From Deltaproteobacteria bacterium (lineage in GTDB: Bacteria > Myxococcota > JADLHZ01): a DNA stretch of 50,558 bases. The position numbers were made by a program, and so were the translations under genes. Where the stretch lies: assembly GCA_020848545.1 (NCBI GenBank), contig JADLHZ010000152.1:1-50558 (forward strand), given 5' to 3'. The number at the start of each line of letters is the position of its first letter. Position 1 is the stretch's first letter. Shown piece by piece: positions 1,016 through 32,589 of the stretch. The notes below the pieces were generated by a model. The model made no database searches, was not told the origin of the DNA, and saw only the letters and a list, made by a program, of their open reading frames with translations.

Positions 1016-1079
1016 AAAAGCGACGCGAAATCTGCATCGCGCTCTTGTAAAAGATTCTCTACATCGTAAAACAGCATGC

Positions 1080-3415: not shown

Positions 3416-3673
3416 GTGCGGCGAGGATTTACCGATCAGTGGCACGAGTTCGACGAGAAGACGACGAAGGTCGGCATGTCGCCCGGCTCGCTGCTGCGCA
3501 AAGTCGTGATCGACTACAACCAGGGCCTCTTCGTGAACATGTCGCGCTGCAGCCCGGAGGTGATCGCCGAGCTCAAGAAGCGCCGCGATGAGGTCAAGGC
3601 GCTCGACATCGAGTCGGTGGTACTCACGGTGCTCGGCGAGTGGGCGGCGGATCGGCAAAAGAAGAAGCGCTAA
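3416..3673 (+). CDS. hypothetical protein, 85 aa
   Basis: A small unknown protein that begins with GTG 13 nt after the recombinase stop; an alternative ATG at 3476 (MSPGSLL) has a GAAGG upstream. The sequence is charged, probably helical, and ends in a lysine-rich tail. It may be the last gene of the IS66 unit. Its 3' end overlaps by 50 nt the 3' end of the glycosylase gene on the other strand, so one of the two termini may be the product of a junction created when the element inserted. No domain recognised. Confidence 0.45.
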   Translation: MRRGFTDQWHEFDEKTTKVGMSPGSLLRKVVIDYNQGLFVNMSRCSPEVIAELKKRRDEVKALDIESVVLTVLGEWAADRQKKKR

Positions 3674-4688
3674 AAGAGGCGCCAATCTTCAGGTCAGCGC
3701 ATTCATTCGCTCTCGGTGATTTTGTCCAACCGCCTATGAATGGGCACAGGGCGGATGTGCAGAGCGCGCAGGGCCCCGCGCGTTGCATACAGGGATCTTC
3801 ACGCGCTACGCGGTTGGACTTCGAGCAGAACGCGTAGAGCGCCTCCTGTACGAGTCTCGGAGAGTACGCCGGCAAGTCCGGCCGAAACACGCTCAGGTCG
3901 ATCAAGGCGGCTTGTTCGCGCACCCATCGCGCGCGCGCCTCATAGGTTCTCGGTGCGTCTGCCGCGCGGAGAGCATCGACGGCGCGTGCTACGTTCGTGT
4001 CGACGACTACGAGTTCGTTGCCGTCGATGTCGGGGGACCAGGGTGTAAGCCCCGGAGCGAGCGACGGGGTCGAAAGCGCACTAACGAACATGGTCGCGAG
4101 CTTGCGACCGACACGATGCACTGCCGCAAATCGCTCCACGAGGAGCGCAGCTCGTTTGGTTGGCGAAGGCTCTTCTTCGCAGACCTCAACCATACGCGCG
4201 CGTACTCCGCCATCTATCCAAAGCCGAAGCCATGCCGAGGTCGGCAGCTTGCCCATGTCGCCCATTCTTTTGAAGACGAGGGTTGCATCTTTCACGTGGC
4301 AGGTGAGGCCGGGATGGCTGCTACAGTCGACAATCCCGCCCTCTTTCGCCACGTCGCACCCCTCCTCGAAGGTCTGCACCGAGCGCAGTTTCGGGCAAAC
4401 GTGCCGCGAGATCGATCGCTTCACGGTCGCGATGTCGGCAACGACGCGCGTCGACTCTCGTGGCAGTGAATGCTGCTGACGCATGATCACGACATCACGC
4501 AGCGCCTGGTACATCGAGAGCGTGACGAAGAGCCGGAACACCGCTGCCTCGGTGCCGGCTGCGAGTTCGTCGGGTTCGACGGCGAAAGCGCCGATGCGGG
4601 CCGCGTCGCAGTAAAACGGTAGTTCATCCGTTTGCTGCCTGTCGACGTACCAGCGAACAACTGCCTTCACCGCCTTCGACACACCCAT
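3624..4688 (-). CDS. endonuclease III-like HhH/FeS DNA glycosylase
   Basis: The last gene of the nine-gene defence operon, 354 residues. I recognise three marks of the HhH-GPD glycosylase superfamily. First is a helix-hairpin-helix at about 188-205 (HRVGRKLATMF) with Lys196 at the place of the catalytic Lys of endonuclease III. Second is a VVDTN segment with Asp230 at the place of the catalytic Asp. Third is a C-terminal cysteine set C300-x6-C307-x2-C310-x4-C315, close to the C-x6-C-x2-C-x5-C 4Fe-4S loop of Nth and MutY. The Lys-Asp spacing is longer than in Nth, so it is a divergent member. It would excise a base and nick the strand. It starts 1 nt inside the stop of the protease gene (TGATG). 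The tail after residue 320 runs into the IS66-side ORF and may not be original. Substrate unknown. Confidence 0.7.
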   Translation of the reverse strand: MGVSKAVKAVVRWYVDRQQTDELPFYCDAARIGAFAVEPDELAAGTEAAVFRLFVTLSMYQALRDVVIMRQQHSLPRESTRVVADIATVKRSISRHVCPKLRSVQTFEEGCDVAKEGGIVDCSSHPGLTCHVKDATLVFKRMGDMGKLPTSAWLRLWIDGGVRARMVEVCEEEPSPTKRAALLVERFAAVHRVGRKLATMFVSALSTPSLAPGLTPWSPDIDGNELVVVDTNVARAVDALRAADAPRTYEARARWVREQAALIDLSVFRPDLPAYSPRLVQEALYAFCSKSNRVAREDPCMQRAGPCALCTSALCPFIGGWTKSPRANECADLKIGASFSASSFADPPPTRRAP

Positions 4689-7507
4689 CAGCCGGTCCGC
4701 TTGATGCGAGCGCGCTGCGTGGCCCTGGCTCTAATGCGCGACTGAAGTTCCTGGTGGAGGTCGACGTTAGCGTTCTCGTGCCAGAGCCGAACCGCGAGCC
4801 CGTACCACTGCTCGGGTGCCTCGCCGTGAGGGAAACGATTCTGACAGCACACAACGACGTGCAGCGTCGGCTCGGTCTCGCCGCCAACTACGATGAGCTG
4901 TGGTGCCCGTTTCCATTCGAGCCTGCGTACCTGCAGAGTCGACCAGACCAGGTCTCGCTTCGAAGGTCGCAGCCCGAGCTGGTTCTTCTGCGGAAGCGCT
5001 GGCCCCTGTTCGCCCGGAGTCTGGCGGCCACGGAACGCGGAGATCTGATTGACCGAGATGCCCTTGAGGACCTCGAGCCACATCGTGCGCGCCAAATAGT
5101 CCTTCCGCGACGCTCGAACGGGCGGATCGTACGCCAGCGACACGACCAGCCCCCGACGGCCCCTTCCGGTGAGGAACGCGGGCGGGACCTTCAGCGAGTA
5201 GACGTGCCAGTTGTCCTCGGCAACAACGTCCTCCGCGAGCAGCACAGCACTGTTGCGGCGTGAGTGCTCGACGAGGTCGGCATCGACCGCGCCGTAGCCG
5301 ACGAGACGGAGCTTCTCCCAGGTCTCGTCGCCTTCCGGGTCCAAGAGCCACTCTCGAGGACAAGGCGGCAAGTTCGTGCAGGCTCCGAGCAGCGCTCGAA
5401 CTGTGTTCGCCGACACCTGCGTATCAAGACTCGTTGAAGCGGTCTCGAGTGCGAGCGCGGCGGCATGGGTAATGTGGGGTGCCGCGAACGAGGTGCCGAG
5501 CACCGACGTCAGGTGTCTGCCCGTGTTGCCGGGCAGTCCTGTCGTCGGCTCTCCAAGCTGCGGGTCGGCAGCCACGTGCATGTTGGGCCGGAGGTCGGGC
5601 ACCCAAGTCAGCGGACCACCCGCAAAGGTCCGCAAGCCGAAGTTGCCCCCGTACGCCACAACATCGGGTTTCACGGCACGTTGGCTCTCCTTCGTCTCGT
5701 AGCCAGGGCCCACGCGCGAGAACGGTGCTGGCGCACCAACCGGTGCCGCGGCGAGCGCGCCCGTGGTGTGCGGCGCAGCGGAGCGGGCCAAGGCGCCTAC
5801 CGTGATCGCGATTCCGGCGGTGCCCGGGCTGCAAATTCGCGTCGTCGGCTCGCTGAGGCGTGCATCTCGAACGGCAGCCTGCAGTGCCTCGCGGCCCGAT
5901 GCGGAACCGTCTGGAAGCGGAGGCACCTCGACGTTACCCGCGCTCACGACCACGACGACGTCGAGTTCCCGCGAGAGTTGGTCGAGTACCTCTGCCCAGC
6001 CGAACTGTCGCCCTCCGGCATAGACCTGACTGGAATCGCCGACCGAGAGGTTGAAGACCCGACACTGATGATGTTCGTGCATGTGCCGGATGGCGGCCTC
6101 TACGAGCTTCTCGGGGCGGCGTCCCGCCGGGAAGACCGGGCGACCGTCCTGACCCCGTAGGAGAACCTTTCCGCTCGCGACCAAAACACGAGGCGTCCAC
6201 TCGCGCGTCGAAATGCAGCGGTGAACATCACCGTACACGATGAGGCCGGTCACCTGCGTTCCGTGCCCCTGTTGATCCGATGCTGAGCCATCACCGGAGA
6301 AGTCGACCTCGGCGAGCACCCAGTTCTGCAACAAGGGATGCCCGCTCAGTGTGCCGCTGTCGATCACGCCTACGCGCGGCTCGGAGCCCTTGGGTGTTGG
6401 CGGTGTCGGAAGCGTCTGGGTCGACTCGAACAGCTCCGTGTAGGCCGGCGACAAGACCGGCGGCAGGTCCACCTGGGCGACGAGGTCGAGGTCGAGGACC
6501 GCTTCTGCCAAGGCATGGCTGGCTTTGACACGAGCAAGCACCAAGCTCTGGGTTCGCAGCTCGTCGATGTACTCCCCTCGATGTCGAGAGCACAGCGCGC
6601 GCAGGGCGGTGATGACCTCGGTGGTGGATTGCCCACCCGAGTGCCAAAGATCGACATCAAGCTCAAACGGCGAGGTCGTGGGGAGCCCCTCTCGCGCCAG
6701 ACGAGGCCCCGTTCGATCTGCGCGGGTTCTCGCGCCCGACCACTCCAGCGCATCGAACAGACGCCGCCGCACGCCGGGAGGAATATCGCCCGTGCCCTCG
6801 TCGCCTCGGCGATACCGATCAAGCTCTCGCTGGAACGACTCGACCTCCTGTTGCGATGGGAACTGCACGGTCACGCGCGACACCTGCTGTTTCGCCGGCA
6901 GGGTCGCGACCTGGTTCACGGAGGCGACGCGCAACGCAGTCTCCACGGACGCCGGCCACGTCGCGCGCTCGAGAACGGCTAGCTTCGAGGCGTTCGCGTT
7001 TGAGAGGCTCGGAAGCGATCGGCTCGCCGCTTCGATGTCGTTCTTGGTTGCTTGCCGAATACGAAGCTGCTCCAGCGCCTCGTCAGCCTGGGGGAGGTGC
7101 GTCGAGATCGCAGCGGCGAGTGTGTCGACCGTCTGCCTCGGAGGGATCTCTACGAGGCGACGCTGCGTGGAACGGCTCTCCACCTGCTCGTCCACCACCG
7201 TTGCACGAAAGCGGCTCTCGATGACCTCGCGGATGGACGAATCCCAGCTCCGGAGCTCAAGCACGAGGAGGCGGTCAGGCGCGATGCCATGGGCCGCCCG
7301 GCTGGTCTGCGTCTGCGTGAGCGCATCCTGGACGCTGCCCGCCACGTGGGCACCGTGACCGCCGCGCCCGATGACCTTGGGCGGCTGCGGCGGCGGATTA
7401 CCCCGGCGACGTTCTCCGGTGATTTCGGGCTCCCTGTCGATGGCGAGGTGTCGAGCAGGCGGAGCGTTCCCACTCGGCAGCAACGACATCTGTTCCCCCG
7501 ATGTCAT
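4688..7507 (-). CDS. IetS-like S8 (subtilisin) serine protease
   Basis: A 939-residue cytoplasmic-type subtilase; there is no signal peptide. The catalytic triad is complete: Asp383 in GVIDSG, His415 in GHGTQV, Ser673 in GTSFAAP, with the oxyanion Asn525 in SAGN. About 370 residues precede the peptidase domain, including helical stretches, and about 200 residues follow it; neither extension is a recognisable domain. Paired with the ATPase gene upstream (ATGA overlap), this matches the IetA/IetS two-gene phage-defence arrangement, in which an AAA ATPase is encoded with a subtilase. The target of the protease is not known. Here it lies inside a larger operon and not alone. Confidence 0.85.
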   Translation of the reverse strand: MTSGEQMSLLPSGNAPPARHLAIDREPEITGERRRGNPPPQPPKVIGRGGHGAHVAGSVQDALTQTQTSRAAHGIAPDRLLVLELRSWDSSIREVIESRFRATVVDEQVESRSTQRRLVEIPPRQTVDTLAAAISTHLPQADEALEQLRIRQATKNDIEAASRSLPSLSNANASKLAVLERATWPASVETALRVASVNQVATLPAKQQVSRVTVQFPSQQEVESFQRELDRYRRGDEGTGDIPPGVRRRLFDALEWSGARTRADRTGPRLAREGLPTTSPFELDVDLWHSGGQSTTEVITALRALCSRHRGEYIDELRTQSLVLARVKASHALAEAVLDLDLVAQVDLPPVLSPAYTELFESTQTLPTPPTPKGSEPRVGVIDSGTLSGHPLLQNWVLAEVDFSGDGSASDQQGHGTQVTGLIVYGDVHRCISTREWTPRVLVASGKVLLRGQDGRPVFPAGRRPEKLVEAAIRHMHEHHQCRVFNLSVGDSSQVYAGGRQFGWAEVLDQLSRELDVVVVVSAGNVEVPPLPDGSASGREALQAAVRDARLSEPTTRICSPGTAGIAITVGALARSAAPHTTGALAAAPVGAPAPFSRVGPGYETKESQRAVKPDVVAYGGNFGLRTFAGGPLTWVPDLRPNMHVAADPQLGEPTTGLPGNTGRHLTSVLGTSFAAPHITHAAALALETASTSLDTQVSANTVRALLGACTNLPPCPREWLLDPEGDETWEKLRLVGYGAVDADLVEHSRRNSAVLLAEDVVAEDNWHVYSLKVPPAFLTGRGRRGLVVSLAYDPPVRASRKDYLARTMWLEVLKGISVNQISAFRGRQTPGEQGPALPQKNQLGLRPSKRDLVWSTLQVRRLEWKRAPQLIVVGGETEPTLHVVVCCQNRFPHGEAPEQWYGLAVRLWHENANVDLHQELQSRIRARATQRARIKRTG

Positions 7508-8538
7508 TTGCGGTCCACGAGTGGCGCCGCGTCCCTGGGGTCCGCCCGCCTGAGAACGGAGCGACGATACTCAAACCGATGCAACGCGGCCTCGACGTCA
7601 GGGGAACGCAGCGTCTGGCTGCCATCGAGAGCCGCGGCCTTCCGCGCGTCGAAGCACACACGCTCGGCGTCGGCGAACGTGGCTCCCGTTAGCTTGGCGA
7701 CGAGGCTATCGACTTGCTTTTTGGTCGTTCGGAGCGGTCGGAGACGCTTGTTTACGAGTGTCTTGATCGCCTCTTTGTTCGGGAGATCGAGTCGGAGCAC
7801 GTCGTCGAAGCGCCGCCAGATGGCCGGGTCGAGAGCCTGCTCGAAGTTGGTCGCCGCGATGATAAGCGATCGGCCCTTGAAGCCGTCTAGAAGTTGCAGG
7901 AACGAGTTCACGACTCGCTTGATCTCGCCGTGCTCCGTCGCGTCGTCGCGTGAGCGCCCGATGGCGTCGAACTCGTCGAAGAAAATCACCCACTGTCCGC
8001 GCGCGGCGTAGTCGAACAGCTTGCGAAGGTTCGCCGCCGTCTCACCTAGCAACGACGATACGACGCTGTCGAAGCGCACGTAGAGGAGCGGCAACGCCAG
8101 CTCGGCGGCGAGCGCTTCTGCCGAGGCCGTCTTGCCACACCCCGACGGACCACAAAAAAGCAGGCGCTGCGTCGGTGCGAGAGCGTTCGCCTCGAGGATT
8201 TCCCAGCCCCGGACCTCCTTGAGCACTCGGTCAAGCGACGCGCGGACGCCAGGAGCCAACACGAGATCCTCAAAGTACCGCTCGGGCGTGCGGACCGTGA
8301 GCAGTGGCGTCCTCCGCTCGCTGTCCATCGGCACCGGGTCGAACGTCGGCTTCGTGCCTCTTATGTCCTCCATCGATCGCACGCCGTTGGAGAGGATGCG
8401 CTGTAGCTCGTTTGCCACCACCGCGTGATGCTTCTTGCGCTCCTCATCGACGAGCTCGTTCGCAGCGAGGCGAAAGCCCTGGTCGTCACGTCGCTGGTAG
8501 GCCTCGAAGAGCCTCTTGAGCAGATCAGCGCGTGCCAT
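7504..8538 (-). CDS. IetA-like AAA ATPase
   Basis: A 344-residue AAA-family ATPase, the expected partner of the S8 protease encoded just downstream. Walker A is GPSGCGKT at 130-137, Walker B is FFDEFDAI with Asp188-Glu189, sensor-1 is AATNFE near 228-233, and WRRFDD near 241 supplies the Arg finger region. The N-terminal 90 residues are helical and may bind the protease or a trigger. ATG 8538 gives a sensible N terminus (MARADLLKRL); the longer open frame upstream only mirrors mcrC. The start lies 14 nt inside mcrC. The product probably controls or delivers substrate to the protease. Confidence 0.85.
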   Translation of the reverse strand: MARADLLKRLFEAYQRRDDQGFRLAANELVDEERKKHHAVVANELQRILSNGVRSMEDIRGTKPTFDPVPMDSERRTPLLTVRTPERYFEDLVLAPGVRASLDRVLKEVRGWEILEANALAPTQRLLFCGPSGCGKTASAEALAAELALPLLYVRFDSVVSSLLGETAANLRKLFDYAARGQWVIFFDEFDAIGRSRDDATEHGEIKRVVNSFLQLLDGFKGRSLIIAATNFEQALDPAIWRRFDDVLRLDLPNKEAIKTLVNKRLRPLRTTKKQVDSLVAKLTGATFADAERVCFDARKAAALDGSQTLRSPDVEAALHRFEYRRSVLRRADPRDAAPLVDRK

Positions 8539-9868
8539 CAGCGCGATCCAATCTGGCCGATGTCCGAGACGATCCGGGCCGCGCTGTCGTTGAGTTCCCA
8601 GCGTCGAGTGGCCACCATCGCCTGACCGTGCCGTCGAGCAAGTCATCGACCGGAACACCCACGAGGCGGATGCGCACCTGCTGGGCCGCCGCAGACGGCG
8701 CGAAGAGCAAGGTCGTCGCGCGCTCGAACTCGCCGCGCGCAAGCGGATGAAGGAGCAACACTTCGCGAGGCTCCGGTATCGAGTACGCCAAGCCGTAGGT
8801 CGTCAGCTGATACAGCTCGGCCGACAACGGCGGGTTCTCGTGGCGGTTCTTGTACTTCGCATCCGCAATAGCAACGACCTGGTTCCGCCGGTAGAAGACG
8901 AAATCGGGGCGTATCGTCGGCTGGTTCCAGCCCCCGGCGTTTTCGAGGTAGCTGAAGACGTCGGAACGCACGTCCTGCATCCCGATGCGTACGTCATCGG
9001 GGCTGTGCTCCGACAGGTAGCGCCCGAGGAAGCGCTCGAATACCATGTTCATGTTGAGCGTGAAGCTCGAGAGCGGCATCGCGCCCGCCTCGACGTGCTG
9101 CCCAAGCCGGGCACCGTGATGGATGAGCGCGATGAGAGTTAGCGCGGTCCGGTAGTGGCTCGAACGACGATCGAGCCCGGAGATCGTCGCTTCGAGCCAG
9201 TCTGCGCTGAGCGGGCGACGTTCGAGATCGCCGAAGAAACGGTCCGCAGCGCGCGCCAGATCGAGTCGCAGATCGCGCGATTCCATCACCGACGCTGCGA
9301 GGCGAAGGCCTGCGGCGAGGACCTGGTTAAGCTCGTGGTCGACGGTCAGGTCGTCGTAGGTGCAGCGCAGAGTTGCTCGGCGCGGGTGCGTCGCGATGTG
9401 GCGTAGGTCGAGACGTCCGCGCGGCGTGGCGAGCTCCTCATTGCGGGACTGGTACGTCGGCAGCAGGCCGCCTCGCACGATGCGCTCGCCGGCGCGGAGC
9501 AACGAAACGCCGAGGAGATCGATGAGCCCGTGTTTTGCTACTTCATAGGTCGTGCGCGTCTCGGTGACGAGCAGGTCCGCGAGGTCGAACGCGTACGCGA
9601 CCATGCGCATCAGGTTGTCGAGACGCAGCTTCGGCATGATGACGAGGCGCACCGAGCTGAGGTTCACGGTACCGATGTCCGGGCCGACCGAGATCGAGAG
9701 CCCAGAGCGAAGCTCGGTGAAGCGCAGGGTCGCGCGACCCTCCAGCTCCGCGATCAGTTCGCGGTCGGCAGAAGAGAGCCGCACGTCGCGCAGCAGCGCG
9801 CCGCCGCCCGGCGTGTCGGGCGTGGTGGTGCTCCATTCACGAACCTGCAGGACGGGAGGTGAGGTCAT
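8525..9868 (-). CDS. mcrC: McrC-family nuclease subunit
   Basis: The 447-residue cleavage subunit that works with McrB on modified DNA. The N-terminal two thirds have the McrC beta-rich and helical pattern (for example MPKLRLDNLMRMVAYA at about 78-93 and ATPRGRLDL at 147-155). The C-terminal PD-(D/E)XK nuclease centre is visible: Glu278 in FERF, Pro321-Asp322 in RPDFVFY, and Asp336-Ala-Lys338 in ADAKYK. All candidate metal and catalytic residues are kept, so it should be active. The ATG overlaps the mcrB stop (ATGA). Length is slightly above E. coli McrC, as in many stand-alone McrC proteins. Confidence 0.9.
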   Translation of the reverse strand: MTSPPVLQVREWSTTTPDTPGGGALLRDVRLSSADRELIAELEGRATLRFTELRSGLSISVGPDIGTVNLSSVRLVIMPKLRLDNLMRMVAYAFDLADLLVTETRTTYEVAKHGLIDLLGVSLLRAGERIVRGGLLPTYQSRNEELATPRGRLDLRHIATHPRRATLRCTYDDLTVDHELNQVLAAGLRLAASVMESRDLRLDLARAADRFFGDLERRPLSADWLEATISGLDRRSSHYRTALTLIALIHHGARLGQHVEAGAMPLSSFTLNMNMVFERFLGRYLSEHSPDDVRIGMQDVRSDVFSYLENAGGWNQPTIRPDFVFYRRNQVVAIADAKYKNRHENPPLSAELYQLTTYGLAYSIPEPREVLLLHPLARGEFERATTLLFAPSAAAQQVRIRLVGVPVDDLLDGTVRRWWPLDAGNSTTARPGSSRTSARLDRADGTR

Positions 9869-12243
9869 GCCTTTAGAACCTTGTCATCGTGCGGCTCCTC
9901 GACGTCCTCATCATCCGGGAGGTCCTCACCAAGGACGGCGTCATGCTTCTTGTCGTCCGGCGTGACGATCGCGGTGAGCGCCTGCGCGAGCGCGTCTTCA
10001 CGCCCTGGCTCGAACAGGTCGAAGCGCAGGCTCGCCGTGTCGCGATCGAACACGCCGCCCTTGTCGGCGGCGAGGATGTTGGCGAGTTTGTTCGGGTCCT
10101 CGTAGCAGTACTCCTGCAAGAGCGGCCAAAGCTCGTCGCGCACGATCTCGCCGATGCGGCTTATTGTGACCGCCGGCTTGCCACCCGGCATGAGGTACGC
10201 GTGGCCAACCTGCAGGTTGCGACCATCTCGGCCGAGCTGCTCGACGATGCGGCGGTTCAAGGCTCGCAGCCAGGTGCTGAGTGCGATATCGGCGATGCTG
10301 CCGGATCGGAGAAGATGCGGCTCGGGCAATAGCTCCTTGAACGCGAAGCGCCGACGAAGCGCTGTGTCGAGGAGTAGGATGGAACGGTCCGCCGTGTTCA
10401 TCGTGCCGATGACCAGCAGGTTATCGGTGACCGTGAACGGCTCCTTTGACAGCGGCAGCAATGCGCTCGTCGTTGCACGTTTCGAGGTCTCGATGAGCGT
10501 GATTAGCTCGCCGAAGATCTTGGGGATGTTTCCTCGATTGATCTCGTCAATGATGAGCACGAAGCGCTTGGCGGGCTGTGCCTGTGCGGCCGTGACCATG
10601 TTCTTGAAAATGCCGGGCTCGAGCTTGAAGCCTTCACCATCGGGCCGATACCCCTCGATGAAGTCTTCGTAGGAGTACATCGGGTGGAAGGTGCAGGTCG
10701 CGATGTACGGATCTGTGCCGCCGCGGCCGTAGACCATGTCGCGTTGCCGATCCGAGAGCTGCGACGGCAAGCAGTTGAAGTTGTGGCGCGCGATGACCTC
10801 GAGCGCGATGCGCTCCGCGTGATACGTTTTCCCCGTGCCGGGTGGGCCGTAGAGGATGACCTGCCGCTTTCGGTCGAGCATGTCGACGACTTGCCGCGCG
10901 ATGCCTTCGAGCGGCGGCGGCGGATCGACCTTCGCGCCGGAGGTGTGCGCGGCGCCGCTGACAACCGACCTCGGAGGCAGCACCGGGGGCGTATCCGCCA
11001 GCGCGTTGAAGTTCGGCCACGACGCAGGGCCGATGCCGTTCACCAACAGCGAGGCCTCGAGATCTGCGACCGCCGGATGTGTGGGTTCGAGCGAAACCAA
11101 GCCGGTCGTCAGCTCGCTGATGGGCGTTGACACTTCGAAGCTGCGGTTGTGGACCCACCGGATGGGAACCTGGTGCGGGCGCTTCGCTCCCTGCTTGAAG
11201 CGGTAGCTGCCGGTCACAATGCCGACCGCGACGACCGTGGACGCATCCGAGAGCAACGCGACGAGGCTGCCTTCCTTGAGGCGGTACACCAGCTCGATGA
11301 GGTTGCGCGCCTCGGTCGAATGGCCATCGAGCGAGGCGTCCTGGAACGCTGTTCTAACGGCGAGACTGATGTCACTCTTCTTGTTCAGCGCGATGGCCTC
11401 CGCAAGGCTGCCAACCTTCGTAGGCCCAAGCGCGAGTTGCTCGTGCGCGAGCATCTCCTTCCATGCATCAACCTCGCCGGCGAGGCCGAGACACCAGTGA
11501 TCGCGAGGACTGAACCCCTTTGCAACGCGATAGCGCAGTTGGACCGGCACGTCGGTCAGCGTTGGGATGCTGTTCCAAAAGCGGATGATCTGGATATCGA
11601 GAGCGTAGAGCCCTTGCCACTGCGGTTTCTCGCCGACGTAGTAGAGCGTCGCTTCGGACCAGGAGGTCGTCGCGTTCCATGTCACGAGGTCCGGAAAGAC
11701 CAGGTGCAGGTACTTATGCATCCACGCGCTCGAGCTCCAGCGCGGCGCCGCGTCATCGACAGATTGCTGGAACTTCTGCGGATCGATGTTCTTGGCTTCC
11801 TTGCCGTGGAAGGCTCTCACGGCCTCGACCGCGTTGAGCAGCTCGGTGCGTCGCTCTTCGAGTAGCTTCGTGGCCTCAGCCTCGCTGATGCTGGGAATCT
11901 CTCGGCCACCCTCCAGCTTCGAGCGCCACGATCCCGTCTTCTTGTCCTGCCAGGCTCCGAACTTCGCGGCCGAGCCGCCTGCGATGCTGCCAAACAGGGA
12001 GAAGTTGAACTCGCCGTCGTTCTTGAATTCCAGCCAGTAGTCCATCGGCTGCTCGTTGCTCACGTTGTACGGGAGCTGCCGCAGCAGGTCAGGGCCGCTC
12101 ATCTTAGCGAGCTGCTCCGGGCCGAAGTGCCCCATGAACGCCGAACGCTGGCGCGACAGCTCGGTGACGTCGGGCAAAACGAAGGACCGCCCAAGCTCCG
12201 CGGCGATGTAGCGATTGAGGATGTCGTGGACGTCCTTGTTCAT
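9865..12243 (-). CDS. mcrB: McrB-family AAA motor with EVE-like domain
   Basis: The motor subunit of a modification-dependent restriction system, 792 residues. The AAA module is clear: Walker A GPPGTGKT at about 466-473, Walker B LIIDEINRGN, the GTMNTADRS motif typical of McrB, and the RRRFAF arginine motif. The N-terminal half is different from E. coli McrB: residues about 40-250 match the pattern of N-terminal regions seen in other McrB proteins, and about 311-385 (VGIVTGSYRFK... PIRWVHN) looks like an EVE/PUA-type modified-base reader. The C terminus is acidic. The start has GGAG directly upstream; this is the only junction of the operon with a gap (8 nt). Confidence 0.88.
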   Translation of the reverse strand: MNKDVHDILNRYIAAELGRSFVLPDVTELSRQRSAFMGHFGPEQLAKMSGPDLLRQLPYNVSNEQPMDYWLEFKNDGEFNFSLFGSIAGGSAAKFGAWQDKKTGSWRSKLEGGREIPSISEAEATKLLEERRTELLNAVEAVRAFHGKEAKNIDPQKFQQSVDDAAPRWSSSAWMHKYLHLVFPDLVTWNATTSWSEATLYYVGEKPQWQGLYALDIQIIRFWNSIPTLTDVPVQLRYRVAKGFSPRDHWCLGLAGEVDAWKEMLAHEQLALGPTKVGSLAEAIALNKKSDISLAVRTAFQDASLDGHSTEARNLIELVYRLKEGSLVALLSDASTVVAVGIVTGSYRFKQGAKRPHQVPIRWVHNRSFEVSTPISELTTGLVSLEPTHPAVADLEASLLVNGIGPASWPNFNALADTPPVLPPRSVVSGAAHTSGAKVDPPPPLEGIARQVVDMLDRKRQVILYGPPGTGKTYHAERIALEVIARHNFNCLPSQLSDRQRDMVYGRGGTDPYIATCTFHPMYSYEDFIEGYRPDGEGFKLEPGIFKNMVTAAQAQPAKRFVLIIDEINRGNIPKIFGELITLIETSKRATTSALLPLSKEPFTVTDNLLVIGTMNTADRSILLLDTALRRRFAFKELLPEPHLLRSGSIADIALSTWLRALNRRIVEQLGRDGRNLQVGHAYLMPGGKPAVTISRIGEIVRDELWPLLQEYCYEDPNKLANILAADKGGVFDRDTASLRFDLFEPGREDALAQALTAIVTPDDKKHDAVLGEDLPDDEDVEEPHDDKVLKA

Positions 12244-12251: not shown

Positions 12252-15116
12252 CTACTCCTCGTCGATCTTCAGGAGATCATCTGAGCGGAATAGGTTGAAT
12301 AGCGTTTCCTTGACCGTGTCCTCGATGAGGGTCGGGCTGAACCCGTTCTCGGAGGAGGCCTCAAGCTTCACGGCGATCTTGATGTTGTCCGCGTTGCGAC
12401 CGAGCGCGTTGATGATGCCCGTGTAGAACGTGTGGAAGTCGGTGAAGGGAACCTCGACGTTGAGCGTGACGCGGCGTGCCTTGTTGTCGTTTCCGCCGCT
12501 CGGGGGCTTGGTGTTCGTTCCCGTCGTGGACACGACCGGCGTAGACCCAAGGCTCATGCCACCGGCAGATCCTCCGGGCTGCGCCACCACGGTGGCGCCA
12601 CTGATCGGGCCCGCACCGATGGCCGTTCCTCCAGCCTCCTTGGCCTTCTGCGCCGCCAGCTTCTCCTCAGCGAGCGGGCCTCGGATGAGCAGATGCCCGT
12701 CCTCAAGGGCAACGCCCGTGAGGGCGATCTTGTCCTTGTAATGAACGACCTTCGCGTCCTCTGCCGACGTGCCCTCGCAGAGCGCAAAGGTTCCCATGCT
12801 AACGCCGTCGATGATCGACTGCCTGAGCACATCATCGTCCTTGAGGATGGGCAGGTGGGTGAACTGCCGAAAGTAGTTCGGGAGCGCCTTCAGACTCAAT
12901 GCCTGTTCTCCCTCGGGCCACACCTGGAGCTTCTTCGCATGAACCAAGAGGATCGGCGCGATCTGCTCGAGGTACTTCTGCTTGTCTTTCAGGAAGGCGA
13001 CGACGAGGTCCGTAAGGTTCTGGTCCGTGGTCGCGGGGGGCTGCCCCATGTCGAGGGTCTTAAGCGGATCGCCGTTGCTGCCGCCCCATGCTGCGTGGCG
13101 GTACGCGCGGAGGATCTGCTGACGCACTCCCTTGGCTGCGTTCGTCTTCTCGGTCTGAAGTTGGGTGATCTGGGTCTTCGAGAGGTTGTGGCGCTCGCGG
13201 TTGGTATCGACGTTCTCGCTCGCCAGGAGACTTCGAACACGTTCCTTGAGAGCCGCGACCTCGCCCTCATCCGCCATGAGGAACACCAAGGTGTTGCGAC
13301 GAGTGCGCGTCGCCGTGCCGCTCTTGTTGAGGATATCCAGTACAGCAGCCTGCGTCTCAGTGCGGCTCGCCACACCGAGAGTGCGTTCGGGCGGCATCAC
13401 GACGAGTTTGTTGCTGGCACTATCGGCAATGTCCCCGGAGCTCTCGGGCCAAACGTACGGGGAGAGAGGCGCCGCGGAAAGCAGCTTGCGTAGCTCGGCC
13501 CCGAGACGCTCCCGCACCTGCTCATCGTCCACGCCGTTCTTCGCGTCGAGGAGGATTCGATTGAGGTTCGGCGTGGTCGAGAAACGGAAGCGCTCGCCCT
13601 CCGTATTGATGAAGTGGAAGCGCTCCTTTATCTGCAGCACGACGCCGGGGATTGTGCCGAAGTCGATTTCGGGACGCGCCGATGCGAGGTGAAGCTCCGC
13701 AGGCGTCGCGCCGCGCGAGCCGTTGCCTGCTTCGCACGTGAACAGGAACGTTGTGGTCGCGAGGCCCGCAGCCACACGCCACTGCGTCATCAGCGGGCTC
13801 TGCTTGTCGAGCTCAGTGGCGTTTGCGGTGGCGCCGATGATGTCGGCCTCAAGCGCCGACCGGAACTCGCGGTCGACGAGCTCCAGCAGCTCCGAACGCA
13901 GCTCCTCGTTCGTTAGGTCGATGTCGCTCGCCTGGATGAGACCTCCGATGTGGTTCTTTTTCAGCAAGTCCGCGACCAGGAGCGCGAGCACGCGGAGCAC
14001 ACCACGCGTCCGCTGGAGCTTGGGGTTCGCGCCAACGAGGTTGAGGGTGTCGAGCAGCGAGGGGTGGAACGGGTAGCTCTTCTTGAACCGCTCCGCGTAG
14101 TCGTGCTCTTTCGCGGAGTCGGGGATCTGAGGCCGCGCCTTGAGGTCCGCAACGTACGCGTGGATCGTCGCGTCTCGGTTGGTGGTCTTCTTCGTGCGGG
14201 TGCCCTTGTCGTCCGTGTCCTGCCCGAACGGCACGAAGAGGCGGCGACGGATGATCTCGTGGACCTCGTCGCCCTGCACCGGTTCGCGGACCTTCTGCAC
14301 CCGGCCAAACAGTTCCTGGAGCGCCTGCAGCACCTGCAACGAGGCCGTGCCGTGGGTCTGAGAACCGTCGCTGCGAGGGAGCGTCGCGACCACGATGACG
14401 CGGTCGTGCTGCCCCGCGCGTGTGGTGAGGCGTTGGAGGAAGGCGCGCGTCTGCGCAGCCAGGGTCGAATCATGAATGGGCACGGCCGCGGCCGTCTCGA
14501 CGTAGTTCGCGACTTCGTCGAGGATGATCAAGCCGCCGCCTGAGAGCTTGAGTAGCTTGTCAATGTCGTCGCCACCCGGTGCGATGCGGTCCGCATCGAA
14601 GTTGCGCACCAGCTCGTAGCCAGCTTTTTTCGCGAGCTGCCACGCGAGATGACCCCACATCGTTTGGACCGATACTCCGGGCGCGACCTCGACCGCGCCG
14701 ACGCCAACCTGGTTGCCGTCGAACGCAGCAACTGGAACGCTCGGCGGCACCTTCCAACCGCGCTCGATCCAGTATTCCTTGAGCGCAGGATGGTCGAAGC
14801 AGATCTGGCCGTTCTTCACGAGATGGTAGAGCGTGATGAGCGTGTGCGTCTTGCCGCCACCGAAGGGTGTCTGGATTTGCATGACGGCGTCGCCGTCACC
14901 CTGACCCGTCAGGCGCCCGACCACCTCGCCTGCGAGCTGGCGCAAGCCAACCGTTAGAAACGTGCGGTTGAAGAACCGGACCGGGTCGAAGTAGTCCGGG
15001 TTGCCGCCGCTGTTTAGCACGTCGGCAAGACTGGCGGCGAAGTCGTTCTGCTTCACCTTGCCTTGCCGGATGTTGTCGTGCGGCGTGACGACGTTCCGCC
15101 ATGGTGTTGTGGTCAT
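12252..15116 (-). CDS. DUF499 P-loop ATPase
   Basis: A 954-residue ATPase of the DUF499 (COG1483) family. The family's characteristic P-loop TPFGGGKTHTL is at 83-93 and a Walker B LIILDEVANY at about 196-205. The C-terminal half (after about 600) contains a low-complexity Gly/Ala/Thr linker at about 830-875 before a final domain. DUF499 proteins are repeatedly found beside DUF1156 methylases and large helicases in defence islands; their exact role is not known, and a motor or substrate-handling function is inferred. ATGA overlap with the methylase gene supports a joint complex. Confidence 0.85.
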   Translation of the reverse strand: MTTTPWRNVVTPHDNIRQGKVKQNDFAASLADVLNSGGNPDYFDPVRFFNRTFLTVGLRQLAGEVVGRLTGQGDGDAVMQIQTPFGGGKTHTLITLYHLVKNGQICFDHPALKEYWIERGWKVPPSVPVAAFDGNQVGVGAVEVAPGVSVQTMWGHLAWQLAKKAGYELVRNFDADRIAPGGDDIDKLLKLSGGGLIILDEVANYVETAAAVPIHDSTLAAQTRAFLQRLTTRAGQHDRVIVVATLPRSDGSQTHGTASLQVLQALQELFGRVQKVREPVQGDEVHEIIRRRLFVPFGQDTDDKGTRTKKTTNRDATIHAYVADLKARPQIPDSAKEHDYAERFKKSYPFHPSLLDTLNLVGANPKLQRTRGVLRVLALLVADLLKKNHIGGLIQASDIDLTNEELRSELLELVDREFRSALEADIIGATANATELDKQSPLMTQWRVAAGLATTTFLFTCEAGNGSRGATPAELHLASARPEIDFGTIPGVVLQIKERFHFINTEGERFRFSTTPNLNRILLDAKNGVDDEQVRERLGAELRKLLSAAPLSPYVWPESSGDIADSASNKLVVMPPERTLGVASRTETQAAVLDILNKSGTATRTRRNTLVFLMADEGEVAALKERVRSLLASENVDTNRERHNLSKTQITQLQTEKTNAAKGVRQQILRAYRHAAWGGSNGDPLKTLDMGQPPATTDQNLTDLVVAFLKDKQKYLEQIAPILLVHAKKLQVWPEGEQALSLKALPNYFRQFTHLPILKDDDVLRQSIIDGVSMGTFALCEGTSAEDAKVVHYKDKIALTGVALEDGHLLIRGPLAEEKLAAQKAKEAGGTAIGAGPISGATVVAQPGGSAGGMSLGSTPVVSTTGTNTKPPSGGNDNKARRVTLNVEVPFTDFHTFYTGIINALGRNADNIKIAVKLEASSENGFSPTLIEDTVKETLFNLFRSDDLLKIDEE

Positions 15117-17815
15117 CCCTTTTTCCCCAAATTTAGGTTCATCTGCTTTTCAGCGGAGTCGTCTCTCTTTGCTGGCGCGGGCAACGAACGCGCTCCGACC
15201 AGAAAGTTTTCGTAGAGGGCGCGCTCCTTGTCGCCGGGGGGCAGCACATCGACGATGCTCTGCGCCAGGCGTTGCATGCGGTCGACGCCACCCGGCGGCA
15301 GCGCGGTCGCGAGGAAGTCGGCGAGGTCTTGGCGCTCACCCGCACCCCAGAGGTTCGCTGCGCGATGGAGGACGTCGATGAGCGGGGCCAGCGTGCCAGC
15401 TAAGGCGGGCTCACCGAGCCCCTTCGTCTTCTTGCGCTCGACGGGGCCCTTGAGCGCGACCTTGTCGCCGGACTTCGTCAGGACGCCGTTGTCGGCGACG
15501 AGCTCTGAGAACTCGCAGCCCATCGACTGCGCCATATGGATAGCCTCACCACTCTCGACCTCAGAGGTGCCGTAGGCCCATCTCCAAATAACGTAAAACC
15601 GGCTCGACTCATCGACGTTGCCGGCGGCCTCACCAAGCACGATGCGCTGGAGCGCGTAGTCGGCGACGATGCCGCGCACCTTGTCGAGCAACTCGGCGAT
15701 GGTGACCTCCTCGCCGCTCAGCTTCAGCACGCGCTTGTGTCTCCCAAACACCTCGACGGCAGGGCCGATCGCCGACATGAAGAAGTCGGCGCCGCGAATG
15801 CCCTGGGACCAAAAGTAGTCGAGGCGCTCGTGGAGGCGGGACTTGAGGTCTGGTTCGACGTCGTCGAGGAATCCCTCGTCGTGGGCCGAGCGCTTGCGGC
15901 AGACGATGAAGACCGACGAAGCGAGTGCTGCACTGCCGATGGCGCGCGTGCGGCCGGGTTTCTCCGTCTCAATGGGCCACGAGGCGGTGACGACCAGGTT
16001 GTTGTCCAGCAGCGCCTTGAGCAGGGTCTCCCATGCTGACGTCGACTTGTGCGCGAACACCAGGACCATGATCCCATCGTCCTTGAGCGTGCGGTGCATC
16101 TCACCGAAGGCGCGGGACATCGCGGATTCGAAGAACTCAGCCGTCTTCTTGTACGCGGGGTTCTGCACCATCTCGGAACGCTTCGGTGTGACCTCGGTCG
16201 CTAGCGCTTCGGGATGAACCTCGCCGATGGCTCGGCGAAGCCAGATGTAGAAGTAGTCCGATAGATCGGAGTACGGAACGGCGTCATAGTACGGCGGGTC
16301 GGTGACGATCGCGTCGAACGATTTTGGGTCGAACGGGAGGTGGTCCGCAGATGCCCGCCGCACGTTCGACCTACCTGTGAACACAAGCAGTTCAATAGTG
16401 CCTGCAAGGTCCTCCACGATTTTGGGCCAACCTGCGGCCGCCTTGTTGAATGGGTTGGTCTCGGCGTAGTCCCAGGTCATCTGGACTGCTTGCATGCGAA
16501 ACGTGTTCTTCACACCGCGTCCGCCGGTGTAGTTGAGGATGCAGATCGTCGAACAGAAATCAGAGAGCTTGCTGACGCACAGTCCAAGGTACGTCGCCAC
16601 CGCTTGAGAGAACTCATCGGCCTCTGCGCCGAGATCGCTGTTGGCCTCGCGGATCTCCTTTACGATGGCGCGCACGTGCCGTGCGAAGGTCGCCATCGCG
16701 AGTGCCTGCCGGGGATTGTAGATGCTGCCCCAGGTCACAAATCCGTAGTTCTGCACGCGGAAGCCGAGCGTGCCCTTCGGCGGCAAGGGCTCGTGAGGGA
16801 TCGCAGGGATGTCGCCGAAAGCTTCGGGTTGAGGAACCCTCTCGGCGCGTTGGATCTCCGCACTGGTGGGAACGCGGTATCGCTTGCCCCTAGTGCCGTC
16901 GCGAACCGCGAGCGCTAACAATCGGTGGCCTAATCCGACGGACTTGCCTTTCATTTTGATGTAAGAGCCGGGCGAGATCTGCTGGCAACAAGGACACACC
17001 GCGTTTGCGCCCTTGATCGTACCAGCGTTGAGGTCGAGGTTTCCGGAAGGGTTCTCGACCACCTCGAAGTTGACGGACTTGCGGTCGCGCGCCGCTTTCG
17101 GAAGTAGCGCGACCACGAAGTCGTCCTTCTTGATGAGATAGCAGGAACCAATGAGAGGAATCTCGACGTTGCACGCTGGGTTGGAACACCGAACAGTGCG
17201 CGCCCAGATGTAGAACAGCGCCTCGTCCTTCTTGTCGGCTCGATAGTACTCTTCAATGTCGGCCGACGCTCGCTTCTGGACGATCTCGCCCCAGCGCTCG
17301 ATCTCCGAAACGAGCCGCGAGCGACCGAGAAGCGTGTCCTCGTTGGTGCGATTAGACCGGAGGTGCGCGAAACGCTGCGGATAGTAAAGCGTCGCAAGCT
17401 CGATGAGATACGCGACGGGATTCAGGTCGGTGGCGTAAGCTTCGGCGCCGAGTCGTTCAGCCTCGAGCGGCAAAGCCCCTCCTCCTGAGAACGGGTCCAG
17501 GGTCTTCGGGGCGTTGACGACGCCGTGATCCTTCATGATGGCGCGCAACCGGTCGACCTGCTTTTGCGGCTCCTTGCCAAGCTCCCACTCAAGGTTGTCC
17601 GTGATCAGTTTGTGGAACCGCTGCCGTTCTTCATCGTTGCGAGGCGCGGGCAAGAGCGCCGCCATCGTCGCTGCGCGCGCAGCCGCGAGCGGTCGACGTG
17701 CCCACCACAGGTGCAGCGTGCTGATGTGCCCGTGCCGAATGGACTTCTCCTTCGCGGAGTACTCGCTGATCTCCCCGATCGGAAGGCTGTCCTCAATGAG
17801 GCGCCGGTTGCTCAT
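15113..17815 (-). CDS. DUF1156 adenine-specific DNA methylase
   Basis: A 900-residue DNA methyltransferase of the DUF1156 (COG1743) family. The N terminus has the family signature EKSIRHGH and LHLWWARRPLAAARA at 23-48. The AdoMet-binding motif is LDPFSGGG at 106-113, and the catalytic DPPY is at 506-509, which marks an amino (N6-adenine or N4-cytosine) methylase; the family is assigned to adenine. A Zn-ribbon is suggested by C210-x4-C215 and the C274/C276/C277 group. The target-recognition part must lie in the long spacer or C terminus. It likely marks host DNA as self for this operon. ATGA overlaps join it to the helicase and ATPase genes. Confidence 0.9.
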   Translation of the reverse strand: MSNRRLIEDSLPIGEISEYSAKEKSIRHGHISTLHLWWARRPLAAARAATMAALLPAPRNDEERQRFHKLITDNLEWELGKEPQKQVDRLRAIMKDHGVVNAPKTLDPFSGGGALPLEAERLGAEAYATDLNPVAYLIELATLYYPQRFAHLRSNRTNEDTLLGRSRLVSEIERWGEIVQKRASADIEEYYRADKKDEALFYIWARTVRCSNPACNVEIPLIGSCYLIKKDDFVVALLPKAARDRKSVNFEVVENPSGNLDLNAGTIKGANAVCPCCQQISPGSYIKMKGKSVGLGHRLLALAVRDGTRGKRYRVPTSAEIQRAERVPQPEAFGDIPAIPHEPLPPKGTLGFRVQNYGFVTWGSIYNPRQALAMATFARHVRAIVKEIREANSDLGAEADEFSQAVATYLGLCVSKLSDFCSTICILNYTGGRGVKNTFRMQAVQMTWDYAETNPFNKAAAGWPKIVEDLAGTIELLVFTGRSNVRRASADHLPFDPKSFDAIVTDPPYYDAVPYSDLSDYFYIWLRRAIGEVHPEALATEVTPKRSEMVQNPAYKKTAEFFESAMSRAFGEMHRTLKDDGIMVLVFAHKSTSAWETLLKALLDNNLVVTASWPIETEKPGRTRAIGSAALASSVFIVCRKRSAHDEGFLDDVEPDLKSRLHERLDYFWSQGIRGADFFMSAIGPAVEVFGRHKRVLKLSGEEVTIAELLDKVRGIVADYALQRIVLGEAAGNVDESSRFYVIWRWAYGTSEVESGEAIHMAQSMGCEFSELVADNGVLTKSGDKVALKGPVERKKTKGLGEPALAGTLAPLIDVLHRAANLWGAGERQDLADFLATALPPGGVDRMQRLAQSIVDVLPPGDKERALYENFLVGARSLPAPAKRDDSAEKQMNLNLGKKG

Positions 17816-20800
17816 GCGTCATTCCTTGTCTGCGATGGCATCGCGAGCTGCAGCCCGTCGATGTCGATGGACACCCTGCGGGTGGTTTCATCGACCTGGG
17901 CTGTCGCCGCGTCTTTCGGCGCTAGCCGAAGAAGCTGGTCGTTCTTCGTGACGTACAGCGCGGCGTGGTTAGCGAGGTGCTGGAGCTGCGTCCACTCGGT
18001 GGACTTGAGCCACACCTTGCCGTCGCCATCGACGTCGCGCGCTACCAGGAAGTCCACCCCCTGGCCCTCGGCGTCGCTCGCCACGGCGTCGAAGCCGAGG
18101 CCTTCGAGACGCACGTCCTCGACGACGCGTCCTCGCGACGACTCGTACGCCCGCACCCGGTCCAGCACAACATCACTAGCCTTCGCCGCGCCGGCCCTGG
18201 CCGTAACGGGTAGGACTGTGACTACGCCGAGGAATTCGGGCGCGCGCGGGACGAGTTGCTGCTCGAGGCGAATCTCGGCGAGGCGCTCCTGTTGCCGCCG
18301 TTTGGCATCGTCCATGAGCCGCTGCTCGCGCCCGAGGGCGAGCGTCATGTCCTGGCCCGCACTCGACTTGCTCTCGAGGTCGAGGAGATGGTCGGAGTGA
18401 CGGCTGATCACAACGCGGAACGAGCGCTCGAGGTAACGCTCCTTCAATGCCAGCTCCTTGAGTCGTCCGCTCGCGACCTCCTCGACGAAGCGCGGGACAA
18501 GGTGTTCGAGGCAGAAGTGCGTCGCCGCGTGCTTGCGCACGTCGAAATCGGTGAGCGAAGGCGGCGGCGGGCCATCGATGCGCGGGCGCAGATCATGAAG
18601 ACGAATCGGGTGCGCGGGCTCGAAGGTGGGCGAGCCCGGCGCGCCGAACTCCCGCACGGCGAAGAGACGCTGCGAGAGCACGCGGCCCGTGCCATCGCCG
18701 ACGACGCCCCGAAAGAACCAGAGGAGCTCGGGCCCCTCCGCGTCGACGTCGAAGAACACCGCGCCACGCGTGAGAGCGTCCGCAGAGCTGGCTGACGCGG
18801 CCTGCAGCACCGACTCGAATAGTGGATGGCCCGGGCCAAGTAGCTCCGTGCGCCCATCATCGCCAACCGTCTTCTTATCGAAGGTGAGCGAGAGGTAGCT
18901 GCGCTCGACTGTGCCGAAACGACGGCGGAAATCGAGCTCCTGTTCGTGCCGCAGGTTCACAGGCACACGTTCGACGCGGAGCTTGCCGTCCGCGCGCCGC
19001 TCCCACCGCCCACGGTTTCGTTCCAGGGAGCGCGTAAAGAACGACTCGAGATGTGCCGGGATGAGCGCGTGGCGCTCGGAACGGGCAGCGTCTTGGCGAA
19101 GCTCCGGCAGGTTCAGGAAGCGACGCGCGAGGCCCTCCTCGCGGGCAGCGATCAGCGAGGCCTGGTGTGCCGGGCTCACTGCCTGCTCGATGCTCGAGAC
19201 GGCATCCTGCAGACGACGCCGGTTCGTGATGCACGAGATGATCAAGTCGGACAGTGAGATCTCGTGGTCGTCGAGCAAATCGCCAACGAGGTCGAACACG
19301 CGGTCGGAGCCGAGGCCCCGCCGCATCTCATCCATCTTGTTGAGCAGCGCGGCGAGCACAGCACCTTCGCGGGTGTCGGTCGCGACGAGGTTGAAGATGA
19401 AGACCTCGTTCTTCTGGCCGATGCGGTGGATACGACCCATTCGCTGCTCGAGCCGATTGGGGTTCCACGGGATGTCGTAGTTGACCATCTGGTTGCAGAA
19501 CTGGAGGTTGATGGACTCGCCGCCCGCCTCCGTCGCGACCATCACCTGCGCCGGTCCACGGAAGAGTTCCTGCTGCTTGCGTCGCTGCTCCATCGACAGC
19601 GAGCCAGCGATGACGGCCACCGTGAAACCTTGCCCGCGCAGCCGCTCGACGAGGAAGTCGAGCGTGTCCTTCGCTTCGGTGAAGATGAGGAGCTTCTCGC
19701 CACGCGCGGCGAGGCCCTCGTCGCGGAGGATCGCGTCGGTAAGCCTGATCAGCTTCGCCTCGATGCCGCTACCGAGAGCCGCGCGAGCGCGGCGCACGAG
19801 GCGTTCGAGGGCGAGCACCTCGGCCTGAAGCTCCTCAATCGACTCGGCATTAGTGAGGCGCTCGACCAACGAATCCTCGACCTTCCAGCGTTCCTCTTCG
19901 GCGAGGTCGTCGAGGTCGTCGACCTCCGCGCCATCGAGGAGGTCTTCGAGCACCGCATCGTTCTCCTCCGACTTCAGCGCGTTGCGAGCCTTGCTCGCAA
20001 CGAGAGCGCGAACCTGGTCGAGGAGCACCTGCAGCCGCTCGTGGCGCCGCGTGAGCGAGGCCGTGATCGCCGCGAGACTCGAGGTCAGGCGGCGCTGGAG
20101 AATGGTCATGGCGAAACCGACTGTGCGCTTCTCCTTTTGCATCGCCTTGTTGAAGTGCTCGGCGACGTATTCGGTGACTTCGTCGTAAAGTTCACGCTCG
20201 GCGCGGCTCAGGTCGAACGTGACCGTCTTGACCGTGCGCTGGGGAAAGAGCGGCGAGCCGTCGAACCGGCGCATCTCCTCCTTCAGACGACGCAAGATGA
20301 TGGGGTTGTCCGAGGAGCGCATCGCCTCTTCGAGGATCTGCCGGTCAGCGAAGAGGTCCTTGTCGAGCAGCTCGAGGAGCAGCCGGAAGTTTTCCGGGTC
20401 GCCCTTGTGCGGGGTGGCCGTGAGCAGCAGCAGGTGCTTCGTGCGCACCGACAGTTCCTCGCCGAGTCGGTAAAGCCGCGTCTTGCGCGTCTTCTGCGAG
20501 CGCACGCCCTGCTGGTACGCGGCCATCTTGTGAGCCTCATCAACGATGACAAGGTCCCAGTCGGCGTCCTTGAGCGGCTCGAGCACGTTGTCACGCGCGG
20601 CCCAGTACACCGAGGCTATGCAACGGTTGGTCTCGGTCCACGGGTTGCGGCCGACGTTGGCCTTCAGCATCCCGTTGTCGATGATCGTGAACTCCTCGGA
20701 GAACTTGCTCGCGAGTTCCTCCTGCCACTGCCGCGAGACCAGCGGCGGGACGACGATGAGCACGCGCTCAGCGAGCCCACGGAAGCGCAGCTCTTTGAGG

Positions 20801-21222: not shown

Positions 21223-21941
21223 GTCGCGTCGCCTACCGCAGGAGACGCCGCAATCTTCGACGAAGCGGGGCGCAAAAGCCCTGCGTCTGCCATGCTGAAG
21301 GTGCGCGGTCCGGCGACGACAAAGTGGTCGACTATGGGAATAGACAGTGCGTCGAACACCCTGACGAGGGTCTGCGTGATGCTGACGTCCTCGTCGGACG
21401 GCTGGGCCACGCCGCCCGGGTGGTTGTGCGCAAGGACGACCTTGGCCGCGTGGTGACGAAGCGCTGCTTCGACCACGAGTCGTGGATAAACGGGCGCGCT
21501 CGCGAGACTGCCCTCGTGCAGTGGCAGCGAGCGCAGCACGTGGTTCTCGTGGGTCAACAGGACGAGGAGGAACACCTCGTTGGTCGCCGTCGCCAGCTCG
21601 TCGACTGCGAAGCGCGCAAGGTCCTCCTTAGTGTTGAGCTGCGGCTTGTGGCCCCATCGGTCGCGCAGGTAGCGACGGGTCAGCGCGGGCATCATGTGCA
21701 GGAGCGTGGCACCCATCTCGCCGATGCCCTCGACCTTCGTGAGGTCGGCGACGGGCGCGTCGAGCACGTTGGAGAGCGAGCCAAACCTGTCGAGCAACGC
21801 ATGCGCGAGCGGCTTAACGTCCTTCCGCGGCACCGCATAAGTCAGCAGCAACTCGAGCACCTCATGGTCCTCGAACGCGCTGAGCCCGCTCGTGGCGAAG
21901 CGATCGCGAAGCCGCTGGCGGTGACCATCGAGGTAGGACAT
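21219..21941 (-). CDS. RadC/JAB (MPN) domain protein
   Basis: A 240-residue RadC-family protein and the first gene of the operon. It has an N-terminal helix-hairpin-helix-like region (VEGIGEMGATLL, about 69-80) and a C-terminal JAMM/MPN metal centre with the RadC box HNHPGG...SDED at about 170-183; the usual HNHPSG has Gly in place of Ser. RadC proteins are common on mobile elements and near defence genes, but their activity is not established and the old DNA-repair link is doubtful. The JAMM residues are kept, so a metal hydrolase (peptidase or nuclease) is possible. The ATG has only a weak GGCGAG upstream. Confidence 0.85.
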   Translation of the reverse strand: MSYLDGHRQRLRDRFATSGLSAFEDHEVLELLLTYAVPRKDVKPLAHALLDRFGSLSNVLDAPVADLTKVEGIGEMGATLLHMMPALTRRYLRDRWGHKPQLNTKEDLARFAVDELATATNEVFLLVLLTHENHVLRSLPLHEGSLASAPVYPRLVVEAALRHHAAKVVLAHNHPGGVAQPSDEDVSITQTLVRVFDALSIPIVDHFVVAGPRTFSMADAGLLRPASSKIAASPAVGDAT

Positions 21942-28352: not shown

Positions 28353-28388
28353 TAACCCTCCTCCCACCCCGCACCCCCGCTTTTCACC

Positions 28389-32564: not shown

Positions 32565-32589
32565 CCTCGTGCGCGTCATCGAAGAGCCC

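Follow-up and report, generated by a model that had tools for sequence, protein, structure and literature searches.

A divergent endonuclease III-like glycosylase candidate linked to many different bacterial defence systems

Here, we describe P0001, a protein encoded by the last gene of a defence operon in the window (the whole stretch of 50,558 nucleotides analysed, contig JADLHZ010000152.1). With a little better than even confidence we read it as a bifunctional glycosylase/AP lyase of the HhH-GPD superfamily and the endonuclease III (EndoIII) type, which was recruited to immunity and acts as a detachable accessory to larger defence systems, most likely as their effector. In biological terms, an enzyme of DNA repair has probably become an add-on weapon with which bacteria attack invading DNA. 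Established computationally are the open reading frame, the conservation of Lys, Asp and Cys residues, an HhH-GPD-like predicted fold, the operon, and the linkage of the family to many defence systems. More tentatively, and with somewhat less than even confidence, we propose that there is a third class of immune glycosylases which is independent in structure, EndoIII-like with an additional Cys4 metal module. Its members would be interchangeable base-excision effectors that pass between Hma/BREX, IetAS-McrBC, GmrSD-HEPN, methyltransferase-helicase and Druantia systems, and one Druantia variant would have HATPase-DruA-HhH as its core unit.

Until now, the only known cases of immunity by base excision have been the Brig enzymes with a UDG fold and the HALFPIPE restriction enzymes. 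No description of an HhH-GPD protein in anti-phage defence was found in the open-access literature, and a survey of DISARM, ARMADA and Druantia helicase systems makes no mention of a glycosylase or HhH (PMC12458937). If our reading is true, the commonest repair-glycosylase fold has also been recruited to immunity, and an effector candidate is available for systems with an unclear killing step (BREX/Hma, Druantia I). The family may yield enzymes specific for unusual modified bases. The proposal is directly testable, as it concerns one gene and two predicted catalytic residues.

Predicted fold and conserved residues

Searches with the single protein and with profiles in Pfam, PADLOC, NCBIfam and PDB sequences gave no significant match to P0001 or its family. 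None of the 39 members matched a PADLOC model at E <= 1, and the Pfam HhH-GPD model (PF00730) matched 1 out of 12 members, below cut-off (E = 0.04), and not the window protein. An AF2 model of P0001 based on the family alignment, which comprises 39 sequences assembled around this protein, is confident (pLDDT 88.2, pTM 0.86), while 12 sequences gave a poor model (pLDDT 65.5). All but two of the best 50 Foldseek matches in the PDB are HhH-GPD glycosylases (MUTYH, OGG1, Clostridium Ogg, AlkA), the best being MUTYH 3n5n (probability 1.00, E = 0.013). Nothing was found at E < 1e-3, and the TM-scores are low (0.3-0.46), so the fold match has to be called divergent. A six-helix barrel with an HhH element is in agreement with both the AF2 model and the leading Foldseek matches, though these have E-values of 0.013 or higher. 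When the family was aligned by hhalign to 13 Myxococcota EndoIII sequences, a score of 33.5 was obtained (P = 7e-4), with Lys on Lys, Asp on Asp and the Cys loops in register; this score was not reached by any of 300 shuffled profiles (27.5 at most) or by the reversed profile (15.6). The AF2 model, the Foldseek leaders and hhalign agree on the divergent HhH-GPD fold proposed in a preliminary description of this DNA, and the outcome which it had named beforehand as a refutation, a fold unlike HhH-GPD, did not occur in the AF2 and Foldseek results.

Predicted helices 176-188 and 194-206 lie on either side of the HRVG hairpin; Lys196 therefore opens the second HhH helix. Asp230 is placed directly before predicted helix 231-240, as in EndoIII. 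K196, D230, N232, Q61, D65, C98, C111, C122, C130, C300 and C315 are invariant in the 39-member alignment, C307 and C310 are kept in at least 90%, and the invariance of K196 and D230 reaches homologs of only ~30% identity. Lys196 is part of VHRVGRKLA and Asp230 of VVDTN (from 228); the preliminary description had located both of them and C300-x6-C307-x2-C310-x4-C315 correctly. Their conservation in the alignment supports the bifunctional EndoIII-type residue set it had suggested, while the invariant C98/C111/C122/C130 and Q61..D65 had been overlooked.

The C-terminal loop reads C-x6-C-x2-C-x4-C in clade 1 and mostly C-x7-C-x2-C-x7-C in clade 2, with one member (L032) one Cys short; the EndoIII loop is C-x6-C-x2-C-x5-C. 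The second Cys4 set (C98-x12-C111-x10-C122-x7-C130) lies in the barrel domain and is probably a binding site for Zn or for a second Fe-S cluster. Textbook EndoIII is devoid of such a set. The N-terminal Cys pattern of this set also occurs in a distant sister family (L091/L092), which has the textbook HhH motif IDGVGPK and the Asp in IDTLVHN.

The gene and its operon

The gene starts with ATG and encodes 354 amino acids (Table 1). It closes a nine-gene operon on the minus strand in which adjacent genes overlap or nearly touch, in the order RadC-like, HmaA/DrmD-like, HmaB, HmaC, McrB, McrC, IetA, IetS and glycosylase-like gene. Its start codon and the stop codon of the preceding gene, which encodes the IetS-like subtilase, share letters at a TGATG junction. 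This overlap, together with the matches of the neighbours to IetAS, McrBC and Hma models, bears out the earlier view of the gene as the last one of a defence operon.

Table 1. Positions in the window of the glycosylase-like gene, its predicted functional residues and the other genes of the operon.
Feature	Position	Strand	Evidence or remark
Defence-associated HhH-GPD glycosylase-like gene P0001	3624..4688	-	354 aa; closes operon
C300-x6-C307-x2-C310-x4-C315, EndoIII-like putative [4Fe-4S] loop	3744..3791	-	Motif, alignment, hhalign
Asp230 codon, GPD-element Asp predicted to be catalytic	3999..4001	-	39/39 invariant; pairs with VDTH Asp
Lys196 codon, HhH lysine, predicted Schiff-base nucleophile	4101..4103	-	39/39 invariant; hhalign pairs it with EndoIII GVGRK Lys
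Second Cys4 set C98/C111/C122/C130, predicted beta-hairpin at residues 114-121	4299..4397	-	39/39; AF2 secondary structure
Q61...D65 past barrel helix, resembling EndoIII LSAQATD	4494..4508	-	Invariant; putative equivalence, by eye
IetS-like subtilase (S8 peptidase)	4688..7507	-	PADLOC IetS 2e-102; PF00082
IetA-like AAA ATPase, start inferred	7504..8538	-	PADLOC IetA 4e-91
McrC-like protein	8525..9868	-	PF10117 6.5e-33
McrB-like AAA GTPase	9865..12243	-	NCBIfam McrB (PRK11331) 6e-44, under its cut-off
HmaC/DUF499 ATPase	12252..15116	-	PADLOC HmaC 5e-144
HmaB/DUF1156 DNA methyltransferase	15113..17815	-	PADLOC HmaB 1e-131; PF06634
HmaA/DrmD-like SNF2 helicase	17812..21222	-	PADLOC DrmD 2e-211, HmaA 1e-210
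RadC-like JAB-domain protein, opens operon	21219..21941	-	PF04002 2.7e-33

The gene shows dN/dS values of ~0.15-0.24 against four homologs of ~73% identity, and thus purifying selection maintains the protein. The C-terminal ~37 residues (318-354) are non-conserved and mostly predicted to be disordered (pLDDT < 50), and this tail partly overlaps an ORF on the opposite strand (3416-3673); the functional protein therefore probably ends near CPF-317. The DNA similarity of the homologs stops shortly past the CPF codons. Two ordinary HhH-GPD proteins are encoded elsewhere in the host genome.

Just upstream of the operon, the window carries a gene for an ArdA anti-restriction protein (23112-23645, minus strand). 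Together with a Replic_Relax gene (27219-28430) and a ParB-like gene (28574-29416), it makes a mobile element the probable carrier of the operon. Beside the 3' end of the glycosylase-like gene, the region 315-3403 (plus strand) contains a tyrosine recombinase (PF00589) as well as genes that by eye are of the IS66 transposase type. The contig that carries the methyltransferase system also encodes an S-adenosylmethionine synthetase (37268-38413, plus strand) and a PDDEXK_13/REase-ARP nuclease (32521-34317, plus strand). Further downstream in the numbering, a phosphatase-ADP-ribosylglycohydrolase fusion adjoins a WYL regulator (42696-44321 and 44322-45440, both minus strand); the neighbours of brig1, too, include ADP-ribosyl glycohydrolases (PMC11078745).

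Partner systems across relatives

Most relatives have defence genes beside them. The partners of the gene vary widely, and every partner named here was independently identified as a defence-type gene by Pfam or PADLOC. Hma/BREX-type partners are found in the window and in L019, L022, L023, L025, L026 and L031, with BrxL in L094. A methyltransferase together with GmrSD-HEPN accompanies the gene in L018, L024 and L034, GmrSD-HEPN in L030, and HEPN in L020. D12 methyltransferase-ResIII-SMC partners occur in L028 and L093, and in Citreicoccus (L044) the gene is located between a D12 and an SPPY methyltransferase, with these two methyltransferases alone. HATPase-DruA partners characterise L033, L035, L038, L040, L045, L046, L050 and L051, some of which have further Druantia genes, while DruA/SspG/DndH-like partners are present in L036, L037 and L039 and a similar set in L049. 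Contexts are short or ill-defined at L021, L027, L032 and L047. As a background, 60 probe points were placed in three related genomes, on 20 stretches of 20 kb each, and none fell within 2.5 kb of the partner families, the reference set of this neighbour test being drawn partly from the relatives' own neighbourhoods.

The family tree separates a Druantia clade, which includes the methyltransferase-flanked L044, from a clade with the other systems (support 100/100). At least 11 partner changes are needed on this tree, and the gene thus moves between systems like a plug-in module. Each of the four sampled Myxococcota genomes with this type of DruA has the HhH gene on the DruA contig, at a distance of at most 50 bp in three of them; the genomes of two other IetS homologs are without the HhH gene. 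The coupling to McrBC assumed in the preliminary description is not supported in that form, as McrBC-IetAS partners are restricted to the window and L017, where the gene stands beside IetS, and many different systems take their place elsewhere. A special tie to McrBC was therefore rejected as incidental.

Several arrangements deserve a description of their own. The triad of HATPase (MzaB-like), DruA and HhH (L033 4510-9424, L035 4874-9788, L038, L040, L045, L046, L050, L051) is a possible Druantia variant; in L033 and L035, HATPase and DruA as well as DruA and HhH overlap by 4 bp. In L037 and L039, a DruA-AAA/SspF-like fusion is followed by SspG-like, DndH-like and HhH genes, giving a Druantia/Ssp/Dnd hybrid. 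Two large defence-linked proteins (L018 6567-9986, 1139 aa; L040 11014-14001, 995 aa), neither with a Pfam or PADLOC match, each recur beside the HhH gene.

Proposed function and alternative explanations

Lys196 and Asp230 correspond to the residues of bifunctional glycosylases and are invariant, which argues for catalysis. In the proposed mechanism, the six-helix barrel and the HhH would grip DNA and bring about base flipping. Asp230 would activate Lys196 for attack on C1' of the flipped nucleotide, the base would leave via a Schiff-base intermediate, and beta-elimination would then nick the strand. Abasic sites and single-strand breaks on the invading DNA would block its replication. The target may be a modified phage base, the excision of which is our hypothesis, or an ordinary base exposed by a partner helicase or ATPase. 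We infer all of these elements, namely catalysis, the AP-lyase step, attack on the invader and not on self, the substrate, and the coupling to partner proteins.

The protein could also be a restriction glycosylase, cutting an unmodified base at a specific site while a partner methyltransferase shields the host, i.e., the logic of R.PabI in an HhH-GPD fold. Restriction glycosylases are known (PMC10273834), and layouts reminiscent of R-M systems exist in Citreicoccus (L044, D12 plus SPPY), in L028 and L093 (D12MT-ResIII-SMC-HhH) and with the Hma/BREX methyltransferases of clade 1. We nevertheless consider this unlikely: no methyltransferase partner is obvious in the Druantia clade or in L020 with its HEPN alone, and the partner methyltransferases vary in class, which is hard to fit to one recognition specificity. 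Slightly less likely still is a self-protection or repair accessory that clears host lesions or mismatches made by the defence system or the methyltransferase, in the manner of Mig.MthI, an HhH glycosylase which takes T out of T/G mismatches once 5mC has been deaminated (PMC2714593). Methyltransferases are among many clade 1 partners, and genomic linkage alone is compatible with effector and self-repair alike. However, the partner methyltransferases resemble m6A/m4C enzymes and not 5mC enzymes, the Druantia, IetAS and HEPN partners create no obvious methylation damage needing repair, and the family has its invariant Lys and no motif-equivalent Glu where Mig.MthI combines a Tyr at the Lys position with a catalytic Glu (PMC2714593). 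Because the gene moves between systems that are not related to each other, whether or not they include methyltransferases, an add-on attacking invader DNA fits better than a repair helper of one methyltransferase.

Two further readings question the chemistry or the fold itself. DNA binding by HhH domains is not sequence-specific and the partners are mostly helicases and ATPases, as would suit a non-catalytic DNA-binding or sensing subunit with HhH-GPD fold that loads the partner complex; Lys196 and Asp230 being invariant in 39 out of 39 members is expected of a catalyst and not of a mere binder, and makes this improbable. An unrelated helical metal-binding DNA protein would explain why no Foldseek E-value is below 1e-3 and why the window protein is without a Pfam match. 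It is the most improbable of these readings, as the Foldseek matches converge on one superfamily, the hhalign score tops all shuffles, and the sister family carries a textbook motif. The EndoIII-type glycosylase/AP lyase acting in defence is our preferred reading.

Comparison with known glycosylases

The family shares with EndoIII (Nth) and other HhH-GPD proteins the predicted fold, the HhH Lys, the Asp that opens the next helix, a C-terminal Cys4 loop, whose last spacer is x4 in the window protein and x5 in EndoIII, and, as judged by eye, a Q/D pair close to a barrel helix. It differs from EndoIII by the absence of a significant sequence match, by the extra Cys4 module of the barrel, by its location in defence operons in place of a housekeeping locus, and by a Lys196-Asp230 spacing of 34 residues instead of 18; in OGG1 the spacing is 19 (K249/D268). 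A similarly long spacing of 32 (K140/D172) is found in AGOG, an HhH-GPD enzyme with proven catalysis (PMC9638937). Unlike our family, AGOG is an archaeal repair enzyme, and no sequence match to it was found.

Brig1, Brig2 and Brig3 are glycosylases encoded in defence islands of bacteria (PMC11078745, PMC13160076), as are the candidate glycosylases described here. Brig1 is similar in structure to uracil-DNA glycosylases, and Brig3 has an alpha/beta fold (PMC11078745, PMC13160076); membership in Brig1-3 was rejected, since P0001, with its Lys and its Cys clusters, has an all-helical core apart from a short hairpin, and no UDG is among the best 50 Foldseek matches. With R.PabI, which has the HALFPIPE fold (PMC10273834), it has in common base excision with an AP-lyase step, predicted here, and the position of some relatives beside methyltransferase genes; unlike R.PabI, it forms no fixed two-gene R-M unit. 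Assignment to HALFPIPE was discarded because AF2 and Foldseek show a different fold, not the HALFPIPE beta fold. Mig.MthI likewise has the HhH-GPD fold, with Tyr126 at the Lys position and Glu42 as catalytic residue (PMC2714593). Membership was rejected here as well, as K196 is invariant and position 56 of the family, equivalent by motif to the Glu, is not Glu.

Distribution of the family

Of 195 Myxococcota genomes searched, 12 carry a homolog, which in one case is weak and partial, and full-length homologs were found in 2 of 398 Pseudomonadota genomes, with the window genome counted among them. GTDB genomes yielded 35 loci, mostly from Myxococcota, plus Aromatoleum and MAGs of Planctomycetota, Nitrospirota, Binatota and others, the MAG assignments possibly being wrong in part. 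The gene is mainly a chromosomal or defence-island one, since plasmid and phage records contain no match and IMG/VR a single matching contig (L082). Cultured carriers belong to Myxococcus, Corallococcus, Citreicoccus, Plesiocystis, Nannocystis and Aromatoleum. Locus L025 (BNCN01000029.1), labelled Comamonas sp. KCTC 72670, agrees with G152, a genome of ~9 Mb from the same phylum as the window, in its HhH ORF and near-identical contig position; the Comamonas label is probably wrong. A sister-family HhH member (L097 9701-10708) is located a few kb from a CRISPR-like array with Cas2- and Cas1-like ORFs (13000-20000, recognised by eye).
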